Assembly: GCA_016464825.1 (NCBI GenBank)
Contig: JAEKNQ010000030.1
Location: 1 to 64,000 of the forward strand
Source of the DNA: Candidatus Dormiibacter inghamiae
GTDB taxonomy: Bacteria; Chloroflexota; Dormibacteria; Dormibacterales; Dormibacteraceae
Direction of reading: 5' to 3'
Length of the DNA stretch: 64,000 bases
Shown here: one piece after another, positions 4,547 through 46,610 of the stretch
Layout: each line of letters starts with the position of its first letter
Position numbering within the stretch: the stretch's first letter is position 1
The notes under the pieces: generated by a model
What the model saw: the letters and a program-made list of their open reading frames with translations, nothing else
The model's database searches: none
Told to the model about the DNA's origin: nothing
Program-made: the position numbers and the translations under genes

Positions 4547-6546
4547 GGCCGCGAGGCTCCGAGGAGCACGGGCCGAGGCGGCGCTTCGGGTGCCGGCGGA
4601 TTCGCCAGCGTGGCGAGGTCGGGGAAGGTTGCGGCAGCCGCCCGCTGGATCTGAAAGATGCCGGCGAAGCGGTTCAATTCGGCCAGACCAAGGCGTACTC
4701 CCAAATCACAGAGCAGGTCCCAGCTCTCCCGCAGCGGTTGGCGCCCCTCCAGCGGCGGCCGCAGGAACTGCACCCGACCCTCCAGACTGGTGTAGCTGCC
4801 CTGCGTTTCAGCGAAGCTGAGCGCCGGCAGAGTCACGTCGGGCCTGCCGTGCGCCGGGCGCAGGACCGTGTCCCAGGCGACTACGAATCGGGCCGAGGCG
4901 GGCAGGGGAACGGCCGGCGGTCCGAAGCAGAGGACTGCGTCGCAGCCGACCAGGTCATCGGGTCTCCCGACCACCCCCGTGACCAGTGCCCCACGCTCAT
5001 TGGTCGCCTGGTAGAGCGGCATGACCTTGGCGCCGCAGCTGCCGGCGAGCTCTTGCGCCGCGGCTACCAGGTCGGCGCTGGCGGTCTCGTCGGGACCCTG
5101 GCCGTGGACTATGCCGACGGGGCCTGACTGGAGCAGCTCATGGCCGATCAGCTGCCTGGCTGCGGCAGCCAGGCCCGCCTCACCCGGCCGGATGTGCACA
5201 GAGTCCGGCCAGCGGTCAAGGTCGAGGTGAGCGGCGTTGATCAGCAGCAGCTTGGCGCCGAGCTTTTTGACAGCCTTCTTGATCCGAAGGTTGACAATGG
5301 GCGTCTCCTTCTCCGTGTCCGCGCCGAGGACGACTATTGCCTTGCACGTGTCGAGCTCCTCGATGCGCAGCGTCTCGCCCTGGGGCGGCGGCAGGTAGGT
5401 CCGACCCTCCATCGCCACCCGGGCTTCCTTCAGAGGACCTGCCAGAAGCCGACTCAGCAGATAGAGCTCCTCATTGGTCACATCGCGGCGAAGTGAGATG
5501 CCGAGCCTCCGCCCTTTCAGGCCTTCCGCCACCGCCTGCAGCGCGGCTTCCCAGGTGGCGGGCTGGCCCCCGAGCTGGGGCTGGCGCAGCCGCTCCGGCG
5601 CATTGACCTCCGTGTATTCAAAGCGGCCTCTGTCGCAGATCCAGCCATCATCGATCGCGTCGTTCTCGTGAGAGGTCACCCTGACCAGTTGGTTGCGCCG
5701 CTCCCAGAGCGTCACGTTGCAGCCGACCGAACAGCGGGAGCAGACCGAGAAGGTGTGGTTCATGTCCCAGGGACGCGACTCGAAGCGCCAGACGCGGCTG
5801 GTCAGAGCGCCGACCGGACAGAGGTCGATGATGTTGCCGCTGAAGACCGAATGGAGGGGTTCTCCGAACTGGCTCGTGATGAAGGCGTGCGCGCCGCGCT
5901 GGTCGGTGGTCAGCTCCTGCTCCCAGGCGATCTCGTCGTAGTAGCGCGTACAGCGGTAGCAGAGCACGCAGCGCTCGCGGTCCAGGGCGATCCTGGGCGA
6001 GAGAGGTATCGGTTTTTGGAAATGCAGCCGCGGAGCGTCGATCCGGCTGGTTGGATAGCCATGGCGAAAGGTGTAATCCTGCAGCGGGCATTCGCCCCCC
6101 TTGTCGCAGACAGGGCAGTCCAGCGGGTGGTTGACCAGCTCGTACTCCAGGATGTCGGCGCGGGCGCTCACAGCCAGCTGGGTGTTCGTCTGTACCTTCA
6201 TGCCCGGCGCAACAGGGGTCGTGCAGGCGGTCTGCGGCTTCGGCGGACCGGGACTGATTTCACAGAGGCAGAGCCGGCACGCGCCCACCGGATCCAGCTT
6301 GTGGTGGTAGCAGAAGACAGGGATCTCGATCCCCAGCCGCCGGGCCGCCTCCACTAGCAGCGTGCCCTTGGCGACGGAGATCTCCTGGCCGTCGATGCTG
6401 ATGCTGACCAGCTCCGGCGCCGGCGGGGGAGCGGCTGGTTCCGGTTGAGTGCGCCGATCGGGGGAGCGGTCCCCGGGAGCTGCTGCCTGCGCGGTGCTCG
6501 CCGGCTGAGGCGACTGACGCGTCTCCTTGGCCTCCTGGTCAGGCAA
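4543..6546 (-). CDS. nuoG: NADH-quinone oxidoreductase subunit G
   Basis: Large iron-sulfur subunit of the NADH-oxidising arm. The 667-residue product starts with a Pro/Gln/Ala-rich leader of about 45 residues not typical of the family. It then has the 2Fe-2S ferredoxin fold (cysteines in FCYHHKLDPVGACRLCLCEI), the His-Cys3 motif HPLDCPVCDKGGECPLQDY, a 4Fe-4S pair (CVLCYRC and DLCPVGAL) and a molybdopterin-oxidoreductase-like 4Fe-4S site (CSRCSVGCNV with a later CDRG), i.e. an N7-type cluster. The C-terminal third is a degenerate molybdopterin domain. It overlaps nuoF by 8 bp and nuoH by 4 bp. Confidence 0.95.
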   Translation of the reverse strand: MPDQEAKETRQSPQPASTAQAAAPGDRSPDRRTQPEPAAPPPAPELVSISIDGQEISVAKGTLLVEAARRLGIEIPVFCYHHKLDPVGACRLCLCEISPGPPKPQTACTTPVAPGMKVQTNTQLAVSARADILEYELVNHPLDCPVCDKGGECPLQDYTFRHGYPTSRIDAPRLHFQKPIPLSPRIALDRERCVLCYRCTRYYDEIAWEQELTTDQRGAHAFITSQFGEPLHSVFSGNIIDLCPVGALTSRVWRFESRPWDMNHTFSVCSRCSVGCNVTLWERRNQLVRVTSHENDAIDDGWICDRGRFEYTEVNAPERLRQPQLGGQPATWEAALQAVAEGLKGRRLGISLRRDVTNEELYLLSRLLAGPLKEARVAMEGRTYLPPPQGETLRIEELDTCKAIVVLGADTEKETPIVNLRIKKAVKKLGAKLLLINAAHLDLDRWPDSVHIRPGEAGLAAAARQLIGHELLQSGPVGIVHGQGPDETASADLVAAAQELAGSCGAKVMPLYQATNERGALVTGVVGRPDDLVGCDAVLCFGPPAVPLPASARFVVAWDTVLRPAHGRPDVTLPALSFAETQGSYTSLEGRVQFLRPPLEGRQPLRESWDLLCDLGVRLGLAELNRFAGIFQIQRAAAATFPDLATLANPPAPEAPPRPVLLGASRP

Positions 6547-7876
6547 CCGCTGTGGCCTCCACTCTCGCGAATTCGCATTCGCCTGTCGGGCACAGGCGGC
6601 GAAGGCAGTGGGCCTCGTACTCGACGCGGAAGTGCTTCACAGTCGAGTCGATGACCCAGCCGGCCGAGTCGCCCAGGCCGCACAGGCAGCGGCCGCCCTG
6701 GAGGCTTGCCTGAATTCGGTCAAGGATCTGCATATCCACAGCGCTGGCCCGGCCGGCCTGGATGCGATCGAAGGTGCGCACCGCCCAGTTGCTGCCAACG
6801 CGGCAGGGGGTGCACTTGCCGCAGGATTCGTGGGCGTAGAACTGCAGCAGCCGCGACGCCGCTTTCACTATGCAGTGGGAGTCGTCCATGACTATGACCC
6901 CGCCGGAGCCACCCATAGAACCGATCCTGGCCAGCTCGTCAAGGTCGGTTGAGGTGTCCAGCATGGATCCCGTCAGGACCGGCGCGGAGGAGCCTCCCGG
7001 CCAGAACACCTTCACCTCGCGCCCTTCCGGCGGGCCACCGGCGAGCTCCATGATCACAGTCCTGAACGAGGTGCCCAGTTCCACCTCGTAAACGCCTGGC
7101 TTCTGCACGTTGCCGCTCACCGAGAGCATCCGAGTCCCCTTCGACTTCTCGGTCCCAAACTGCGCGTAGGCCTCGCCGCCGTGGCGCAGGATCCAGGGCA
7201 GAGTCGCGAGTGTCTCCACGTTGTTGATCAGCGTGGGTCGGCCCCAGGCGCCCTTCACCGCCGGGAAGGGTGGCCGCGAGCGAGGCTGCGCCCGCTTACC
7301 CTCGAGCGACTCGAGCAGCGCCGTCTCCTCACCGCAGATGTAGGCGCCGTGGCCGCGATAGAGCTGGATGTCGAGCGCGTACTCGCAGTCAAAGGGTCGA
7401 TCGCCCAGGATGCCCGCCTGGCGGAGCTCGGCGATGGCGGCTCTAAGCATGCCGTAGGGACCGTCATACTCACCGCGGATGTAGATCCAGGCTTGGTGAG
7501 AGCCGATGGCTCGGCAGGCGATGCCGATCCCCTCCAGCAGCAGGTGGGGCGAGTTCTCGACCAGGTAGCGGTCCTTGCTGGTGCCCGGCTCTGCCTCGTC
7601 GAAGTTGACCACGACGTAGCGCGGGCCAGGGATGTCCTTGGGGATGAAGCTCCACTTGGTGCCTGTCGGAAAGCCGGCGCCGCCCCGGCCGCGCAGGCCC
7701 GAAGCCTTTACCTCGGCCTGGATCTGCTCAGGCTCCAACTCCCGGAGCGCGCGCGCCAGCGTCTCATAGCCGCCGTGCCGTCGATAGACATCGAGAGTGT
7801 GCAATTCATAGGTGCCGAAGAGCCCCGTCAACAGGTGGTCGCGCGCCTGCCCGTGAGAGCCTCGCAGCTCAACCAT
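6539..7876 (-). CDS. nuoF: NADH-quinone oxidoreductase subunit F
   Basis: NADH- and FMN-binding subunit of complex I. The 445-residue product carries the glycine-rich GRGGAGFPTGTKWSF motif near residues 63-77 for NADH/FMN binding and a second conserved loop YICGEETALLESLEGKRAQP near 179-198. The N3 4Fe-4S site SCGKCTPCRVG plus a distal cysteine in LCGLGD is also present. It overlaps nuoE and nuoG by 8 bp each, which suggests stoichiometric coupled translation of the E-F-G module. Confidence 0.97.
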   Translation of the reverse strand: MVELRGSHGQARDHLLTGLFGTYELHTLDVYRRHGGYETLARALRELEPEQIQAEVKASGLRGRGGAGFPTGTKWSFIPKDIPGPRYVVVNFDEAEPGTSKDRYLVENSPHLLLEGIGIACRAIGSHQAWIYIRGEYDGPYGMLRAAIAELRQAGILGDRPFDCEYALDIQLYRGHGAYICGEETALLESLEGKRAQPRSRPPFPAVKGAWGRPTLINNVETLATLPWILRHGGEAYAQFGTEKSKGTRMLSVSGNVQKPGVYEVELGTSFRTVIMELAGGPPEGREVKVFWPGGSSAPVLTGSMLDTSTDLDELARIGSMGGSGGVIVMDDSHCIVKAASRLLQFYAHESCGKCTPCRVGSNWAVRTFDRIQAGRASAVDMQILDRIQASLQGGRCLCGLGDSAGWVIDSTVKHFRVEYEAHCLRRLCPTGECEFARVEATAVA

Positions 7877-8525
7877 GGGACTTCTCCTGACGGGTGCCGG
7901 CCGAACGCCTGCGGCGAGGCCTGGCGACCTGAGGTGGGGCAGGAGTGCCCTGCTCCGACGGGCCTACCATCGGCACCGGGACCGTACCGGAAGGCGGTGG
8001 GGCGACTGCGGCCGGCTGCGCGCCCTCGCGGCGAGCCGCCTGGACCAGAGCGTCGATCTTCGCCGGCGTCAGGTCGTATTGATAAGCGTGCTGATAGCGC
8101 AGCATGGGCGCGTACTCGCAGGCGCCCAGGCACTCCACCTCCTCCACGCTGAAGAGACCGTCCTGGCTCACTTCACCAAACCTGCTCACACCCGTCTGAG
8201 CGAGCAGATGCGAGCTGATGTCGTGGGCGCCGCGCAAGGCACAGGACAGGTTGGTGCAGACGTAGAAGTGGTGCCTGCCGACTGGCTGGAGGTGGAACAG
8301 TGTGTAGAAGGTGGCCACCCCCTCCACGTAGCCGGGATCGAGGTCCAACGCGCCGGCCACCTGGGCCATCGCGGCGGGCGTCAGGTAGCCGAGCTCCTCC
8401 TGCGCCAAGTCCAGCGCCGGCATCACCGCGCTGCGGATCTCGGGGAAGCGTGCTGGCAGGGCTCGGATTTCGGCCAGCGCCTGCTCCGACAGGGCCCCTG
8501 CGCCTTGCCTCACGGTGTCAGTCAC
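7869..8525 (-). CDS. nuoE: NADH-quinone oxidoreductase subunit E
   Basis: Thioredoxin-fold 2Fe-2S subunit (cluster N1a) of the NADH module. The cysteine ligands are visible as CTNLSC near residue 92 and CLGAC near 133. The first 160 residues match the family; the last 50 or so are an Ala/Pro/Gln-rich tail ending in an Arg-rich stretch, which is longer than usual. It overlaps nuoD by 4 bp and nuoF by 8 bp. Confidence 0.94.
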   Translation of the reverse strand: MTDTVRQGAGALSEQALAEIRALPARFPEIRSAVMPALDLAQEELGYLTPAAMAQVAGALDLDPGYVEGVATFYTLFHLQPVGRHHFYVCTNLSCALRGAHDISSHLLAQTGVSRFGEVSQDGLFSVEEVECLGACEYAPMLRYQHAYQYDLTPAKIDALVQAARREGAQPAAVAPPPSGTVPVPMVGPSEQGTPAPPQVARPRRRRSAGTRQEKSHG

Positions 8526-41996: not shown

Positions 41997-42467
41997 TTAC
42001 GCGAACCGCAGCTCAGTGCTGATCGAGATGGCGCTCCCGATGCTCACAGCCACCGGACAGCGGCTGGCGTGAAACTCGTGGGCCCGCAGCGCCGCCTCCC
42101 GTTTGTCGCTCGGACAGCCCTCCAGGCGGTAGCGCACCCGGATGCGCTTGATCACCAGCACCTTCTGCTCCAGCACAACATCGCCCTCGGCCTCTGAGCT
42201 GAGCCTGCCTTCCGCCGCGTCGATCCCGCGCGCCTCCAGCGCGCCCCCGAGGGTGCCGGTCAGTCAACCGGCGGCCGCGGCCACCACGTAGTCAAGGGTG
42301 GTTGCGTGGTCAGGATAAAGGCCTGTGGCTGTCCCGTAGTGCTCGCGGACCTCATCGTGGGTCCCGAAGGTGACAGGCTCGGTCTCCGCCGGCAGGAACG
42401 CCCGTCGGATGGGGCCTTGGTCCCTGACAATGCGGACTCTCGACAGGTACTTGGGCTGCTCTTCCAT
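41997..42467 (-). CDS. OsmC-family protein with in-frame TGA at the catalytic Cys position (candidate selenoprotein)
   Basis: Read through a single TGA at 42264-42266, this gene gives a 156-residue OsmC-family thiol peroxidase. The part before the TGA ends HATTLDYVVAAAAG; the part after continues in the same frame with LTGTLGGALEARGID, then KVLVIKRIRVRYRLEG and FHASRCPVAVSIGSA, with the second conserved Cys in SRCPVAV. In OsmC proteins the residue between these halves is the peroxidatic cysteine, so the TGA sits exactly at Sec/Cys. A 6-bp hairpin at 42228-42244 follows at SECIS-like spacing. Known families include Sec-containing OsmC-like proteins. Alternatively a Cys (TGC) to stop mutation in a decaying region; no sel genes are in the window. 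Confidence 0.7.
42228..42244 (-). promoter_or_regulatory. Candidate bacterial SECIS hairpin
   Basis: In the mRNA the sequence GCGCGC-UGGAG-GCGCGC forms a 6-bp stem with a 5-nt loop. The loop begins 26 nt after the UGA and has G at its second position. Published bacterial SECIS rules ask for an apical loop 16-37 nt after UGA with a G in the first two loop bases, which this meets. GC-rich DNA forms such stems easily, so the evidence is supportive rather than decisive. Confidence 0.45.
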
Positions 42468-45702: not shown

Positions 45703-46610
45703 CCCGGGTGGCGGTACAACTCGGGCTGGGCTCTGAGACGCTGTGCCACTAGTTCAAGCAGGTCGAGATCGACGGCGGTCACCGGCCGGGGACGACGACC
45801 GAAGGGCGCCAACGGATCGGCGAGCCGGGCGGGAGGTCCGGGAGCAGCGGCGGGCCAACGAGTTCCTGAAGGCGGCCGCCAGTTTCTTCGCGCGGGAGCT
45901 CGACCCGCGACTGCCGAAGTAGTGAGCTTCATCAACGGCCAGCGCGGTCGTTGGGGGGTCGAGCCGATCTGCAGAGTGCTGGAGGTCGCCCCATCCACCT
46001 ATTACGCGGCGGCCTCGCGACGGCCCTGTGCCCGTCAGGTCCGCGACCAGGCTCTGAAGCCGGAGATCGCGCGCGTCCAACAGGACAACTGCGGCGTCTA
46101 CGGGGCCCACAAGGTTTGGCGCCAGCTCAACCGGGACGGCTTCGAGGTCGGTCGGGACCGAGTCCGGCGGCTGATGAGGCGGCTACAGCTGGCCGGCGTC
46201 TGGAGGGGCCAAGCTGAAGCGGACCACCCTCCCCGGCGAGGTCGGCGAACGGCCCCAGGATCTGGTCGAACGCAGCTTCGTGGCGGCTCCGAACCGGCTC
46301 TGGGTAGCCGACCTCACCTATGTCAGCGCCTGGACCGGCTTCGTCTGCGCGGCTTTGGGGGTCGATGCCTTCAGTCGCCGGATCGTAGGCTGGCGGGTGC
46401 AGGCCTCACTGCACGCACGAGGTGGCGCTGGATGCTCTCGAGACGGCGCTCTAGGTCCGCCGCGCCCAACAGCTCGAGGGCCTCGTTCATCACTCCGACC
46501 GCGGTGTTCAGTACCTGGCCATCCGCTATACCGAGCGCCTGGCTGCGGCGGGCGCGGTCCGCGAGGAGCTCTACTATCGTCAGTGCGACACCACCGACGT
46601 CGCATGAATC
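45700..46610 (+). mobile_element. Degenerate IS3-family element (orfA and orfB remnants)
   Basis: An orfA remnant (VTRVAVQLGLGSETL, then an in-frame TAG where Trp is usual, then KQVEIDGGHRPGTTTEG and, in a shifted frame, LKAAASFFARELDPRLPK) ends at about 45920. OrfB starts nearby (GVEPICRVLEVAPSTYYAAA, VYGAHKVWRQLNRDGFEVGR). It then shifts frame to RLWVADLTYVSAWTGFV and VDAFSRRIVGWRVQASL, and shifts again. The last Asp and Glu of the DDE set and the element ends are not found. Inactive relic. Confidence 0.8.

Follow-up and report, generated by a model that had tools for sequence, protein, structure and literature searches.

A stretch of 64,000 nucleotides (the window) from Candidatus Dormiibacter inghamiae, a soil bacterium of the Dormibacterota, carries an OsmC-family reading frame that is interrupted by an in-frame TGA. 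The question raised by the locus is whether this TGA is read as selenocysteine (Sec) at the catalytic site of the protein, or whether it is the scar of a lost cysteine codon.

The reading frame and its decoding

The gene is on the minus strand, from an ATG at 42467 to position 42000, and encodes 156 residues followed by a TAA stop codon at 41999-41997. The first-pass annotation had placed it at 42228-42467; the locus was right, the gene is about 230 bases longer, and the strand, not given there, is minus. Translation of 42467-42000 with TGA as U gives ...TLDYVVAAAAG-U-LTGTLGGALEARG...HASRCPVAV..., and, as had been described, the TGA at 42264..42266 (-) after DYVVAAAAG is the sole interruption. 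Pfam OsmC (PF02566; cut-off 27.5 bits) matched residues 56-152 of the read-through protein with a score of 44.2 bits and matched all 57 members of the family, hereafter Sec-OsmC. A search of the whole genome for OsmC recovered the same locus with its one TGA. Profile alignment to the Thermus thermophilus OsmC (1ukk) placed the putative Sec, residue 68, on the first cysteine and Cys137 on the second. The position of the TGA at the peroxidatic cysteine, claimed earlier, is thereby borne out, and conservation agrees with it. The second cysteine, in the motif SRCPVAV (codon 42057..42059, minus strand), is intact, as reported, and invariant in the 57-member alignment; it is the proposed resolving residue.

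The means of decoding UGA as Sec were sought in the source genome, a 3.09 Mb draft in 64 contigs, and the complete set was found. The genes selA (375.9 bits) and selB (321.4 bits) adjoin on contig C33, selD is on contig C3 (348.2 bits), and a tRNA-Sec with the anticodon UCA is on contig C11 (74.8 bits, against a gathering score of 47). The selD gene itself contains a TGA, within GAG-U-ACK, which we take to be the classical Sec position of SelD, and it is an internal positive control. That TGA might instead be an ordinary amino-acid codon in this lineage, a reading in keeping with a frame that remains open on read-through, is next to impossible and was rejected: 27 of the window's 44 long open stretches end at a TGA, which is the stop codon of the MFS, the upstream 344-aa and the PIN-type genes, many Sec-OsmC orthologues themselves terminate in TGA, and the UCA tRNA that was found is the tRNA-Sec.

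A small apical loop containing G is a hallmark of the bacterial SECIS element (PMC1088965). The hairpin at 42228..42244 (-) has its 5' arm at 42244-42239, a UGGAG loop at 42238-42234 and its 3' arm at 42233-42228. The loop starts 25 nt 3' of the UGA, as noted from the first, so that a stem-loop with a small G-containing apical loop stands shortly after the codon. The folding energy of the hairpin did not stand out from shuffled versions of this GC-rich segment (z 0.78), and an Rfam scan of the window returned no SECIS-like match, only an ALIL element. The significance of the hairpin is due to the synonymous-site test and not to folding energy. Synonymous variety collapsed at codons +7, +8, +9, +11 and +12 after the UGA (z -5.5 to -8.8). 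When synonymous codons were shuffled within each sequence, values this low never arose in 500 rounds, no other tested column went beyond -5, and the amino acids of the hairpin codons showed free synonymous variation elsewhere. In 93 of 106 sequences a stem of 5 bp or more was present, compared to 24% after synonymous shuffling, and one stem pair had undergone C-G to U-A double changes in seven distinct sequences, such changes being seen in some Actinomycetota and Chloroflexota. Judged by these sequence properties, the hairpin is a bacterial SECIS element.

Conservation and selection across the TGA

Relatives were compared for TGA or TGC at the site, as had been proposed. Among 151 relatives, nearly all full-length orthologues (in the Dormibacteria relatives, all but one) have exactly one internal TGA, and it falls on one and the same residue throughout a 25-row alignment. 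Named genomes were scanned with the patterns DYVVAAAA and [TV]H[DG][EAP]V[RA]EHY, both of which exclude the Sec site; all 80 Sec-OsmC loci had TGA at the identical site. By the phylum on record, these loci are from Chloroflexota (30), Actinomycetota (17), Acidobacteriota (11), Myxococcota (6), Dormiibacterota (5), Thermodesulfobacteriota (4), Gemmatimonadota (4), Nitrospirota (1), Bacillota (1) and, for one locus, an unnamed phylum. We give this spread as at least eight phyla because the phylum assigned to some draft genomes is out of date or open to doubt. Among named genomes, that of Candidatus Dormiibacter spiritus is the closest, at 97% identity. A bias toward GGT was seen in the glycine codon directly 5' of the UGA (46 of the 80 loci, L057-L136; z -4.5), which may be a context effect of read-through.

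About 40 more copies with the TGA, and several without any, came from a sample of 397 Actinomycetota genomes. Of the TGA-less copies retrieved, seven (L195-L200 and L204) have cysteine at the Sec site and one (L201) is degenerate there; a single Chloroflexota copy (L158) also has cysteine in the Sec column. These cysteine homologues of the same subfamily align with Sec-OsmC over most or all of their length, and the tree of 66 sequences requires at least two changes between Cys and Sec. The presence of the Sec machinery tracks the codon. Among TGA-carrying genomes of other groups, 21 of 23 have selA, the search giving no match in the other two. For selB, 25 of 30 genomes with the TGA form had a match over the cut-off and five had none over it, whereas no such match was present in any of five Actinomycetota genomes that have the Cys form. 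The absences from TGA genomes are likely explained by draft incompleteness. One further Cys-form genome (G438) has selB; with it counted, the gene is present in one of six, and the association with the codon gives a Fisher p of about 0.0035, which is merely indicative because the genomes are related. In one orthologue (L053, G020:C49:15834-16232), the Sec position is occupied by TGG (Trp) and the N-terminus is no longer alignable, in a genome with selA; this orthologue looks like a decaying copy.

The first-pass annotation had cautioned that neighboring genes are frameshifted, and that the TGA could be a decayed TGC. The first part of this caution holds: a psuG-like gene (Indigoidine_A, PF04227) and the next gene, a pfkB-family kinase, located downstream on the same strand (window 41942-40181, minus), are both frameshifted. 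A pseudogene of this sort is, however, scarcely credible for the OsmC gene itself, and decay from TGC is refuted by the conservation of the TGA at one site in 80 of 80 loci from at least eight phyla. The dN/dS ratio against the nearest relative was 0.02 before the TGA and 0.044 after it (0.0103/0.236), and it was below 1 past the TGA in nine of nine comparisons. Purifying selection is strong downstream of the TGA, and the constraint on the synonymous sites of the hairpin codons likewise argues against decay. Furthermore, a close relative (L057) has intact psuG (6536-7441) and pfkB (7475-8296) beside an intact Sec-OsmC gene. The frameshifts in the window may be decay or an assembly error, and they leave the Sec-OsmC gene untouched. 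The original proposal of a selenoprotein is thus supported by the Sec machinery, the conserved TGA, the constrained hairpin and the purifying selection that follows the TGA. From these sequence data, we consider it almost certain that 42467-42000 encodes an OsmC-type protein in which UGA is read as selenocysteine.

Relation to the known OsmC-like selenoprotein

Sec-containing OsmC-like proteins had been said to be known from environmental genomes, and this is so. An OsmC-like selenoprotein with the motif UxxT was described from the Sargasso Sea (PMC1088965, PMC2398784), and it is the single OsmC-like entry in a 2026 catalogue that lists 119 families and subfamilies of prokaryotic selenoproteins. 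By the rule of the catalogue review, different Sec motifs on one domain make separate subfamilies. The UxxT protein and the window protein are both PF02566 members with Sec at the equal position of the fold, and a SECIS-type hairpin after the UGA has been reported for the former, as found here for the latter.

That the window gene is this selenoprotein already known from marine metagenomes is nevertheless unlikely. Its motif is G-U-L-T-G-T, and U-x-x-G-T, in place of UxxT, is kept across the whole 57-row alignment of its family. The window protein matched no NCBIfam model, including NF041052 (OsmC_like_Se, OsmC-related (seleno)protein; cut-off 95 bits), for which there was no match at E 0.001. 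Eleven of the 57 family members do match NF041052 weakly, the best at E 2.1e-06, which together with the common domain and Sec position speaks for the identity. The true member of NF041052 in this genome is a separate gene, a second OsmC gene at C36:68044-68469 (L002, L205) with one TGA and the motif U-L-L-T, which scored 153-161 bits against the model. A profile comparison of the window family with this second gene aligned Sec on Sec at a non-significant score. From the motif, we infer that NF041052 corresponds to the published UxxT family. The known Sec-containing OsmC-like proteins mentioned at first are of the same kind as the window protein, the UxxT member in this genome being the second gene. 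A TGA-containing member of the NF041052 family, over the cut-off, was also present in 12 further relatives.

Sec-OsmC is probably a new subfamily, set apart by its motif and by the NCBIfam model rather than by the Sargasso sequences. We regard as fairly likely the broader view that it is an undescribed OsmC-fold selenoprotein subfamily with members in eight or more bacterial phyla, where Sec is the rule, and perhaps the older state, and Cys is the exception. If so, Sec would have arisen at least twice in OsmC proteins, in the window subfamily and in the UxxT family, and the window subfamily would become the second OsmC-like entry of the catalogue, beside UxxT. Since standard gene calling stops at UGA, an enzyme that is widespread among soil and sediment bacteria can readily escape notice or be annotated in pieces. 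The method deep-Sep relies on Cys homologues, according to its authors (PMC12013277), and methods of this type may pass over Sec-OsmC because its close Cys versions are scarce. The carriers include cultured organisms (Haloechinothrix, Pseudonocardia nigra, Qaidamihabitans and Anaeromyxobacter soli), in which the selenoprotein claim can be tested, and a comparison of its Sec and Cys forms offers a route to asking what Sec buys in the OsmC fold.

Fold, proposed chemistry and other features of the window

An AlphaFold2 model, computed with the 57-row alignment as input, had a mean pLDDT of 96.7, and its best matches in the PDB were OsmC/Ohr proteins (TM 0.78 for 2onf), with identities of 10-21% in the fold alignments. 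By sequence, the protein resembles OsmC proteins of solved structure only weakly (best E 0.013), and a profile search of the PDB sequences gave no match at E 0.001. On the strength of the model, the predicted fold of Sec-OsmC is that of OsmC. In the 57-row alignment, His37, His43 and Tyr44 are invariant, and Arg15 and Arg21 are conserved.

In Ohr, peroxide reduction falls to the first cysteine, resolution of the sulfenic acid to the second, and regeneration of the enzyme to a lipoylated protein (PMC5962072). The Cys-dependent OsmC/Ohr hydroperoxidases, such as the T. thermophilus OsmC (1ukk) and the Xylella fastidiosa Ohr, share with the window protein the fold, the peroxidatic site and a second cysteine in a CPV motif. 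They differ from it in having Cys in place of Sec, and the sequence identity is very low. A sequence of events can be proposed by analogy to these enzymes. The hairpin at 42244-42228 would recruit SelB with Sec-tRNA(UCA), such that the UGA at 42266-42264 is read as Sec. The selenolate of Sec68 would attack the hydroperoxide, Cys137 would resolve the selenenic acid, and a dithiol, for example that of a lipoylated protein, would reduce the selenenylsulfide. The analogy makes reduction of hydroperoxides the likely role of the product. A less likely, though appreciable, alternative is an OsmC-fold selenoprotein that is not a peroxidase, such as a Sec-dependent thiol protein or a selenium/sulfur transfer protein. 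The low similarity to characterized Ohr/OsmC proteins points in this direction, as do the invariant His37, His43 and Tyr44, which the known Ohr mechanism does not appear to explain. Against it, the redox residues fall on the two OsmC cysteines, Sec68 on one and Cys137 on the other, and the fold matches OsmC/Ohr. The peroxidase role is the one that we favor.

Clustering of open reading frames in the neighborhoods of the gene, a comparison confounded by antisense frames, gave no convincing conserved partner; psuG adjoins Sec-OsmC in the closest relatives only. Elsewhere in the window, a fragment of another OsmC C-terminus is located at 11389-11210 (-), at 24 bits (below the cut-off) and with no intact frame around it. 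The ALIL pseudoknot (Rfam RF01497, 69.8 bits) is at 45877-45993 (+); such elements usually serve as frameshift signals in IS3-type transposases.
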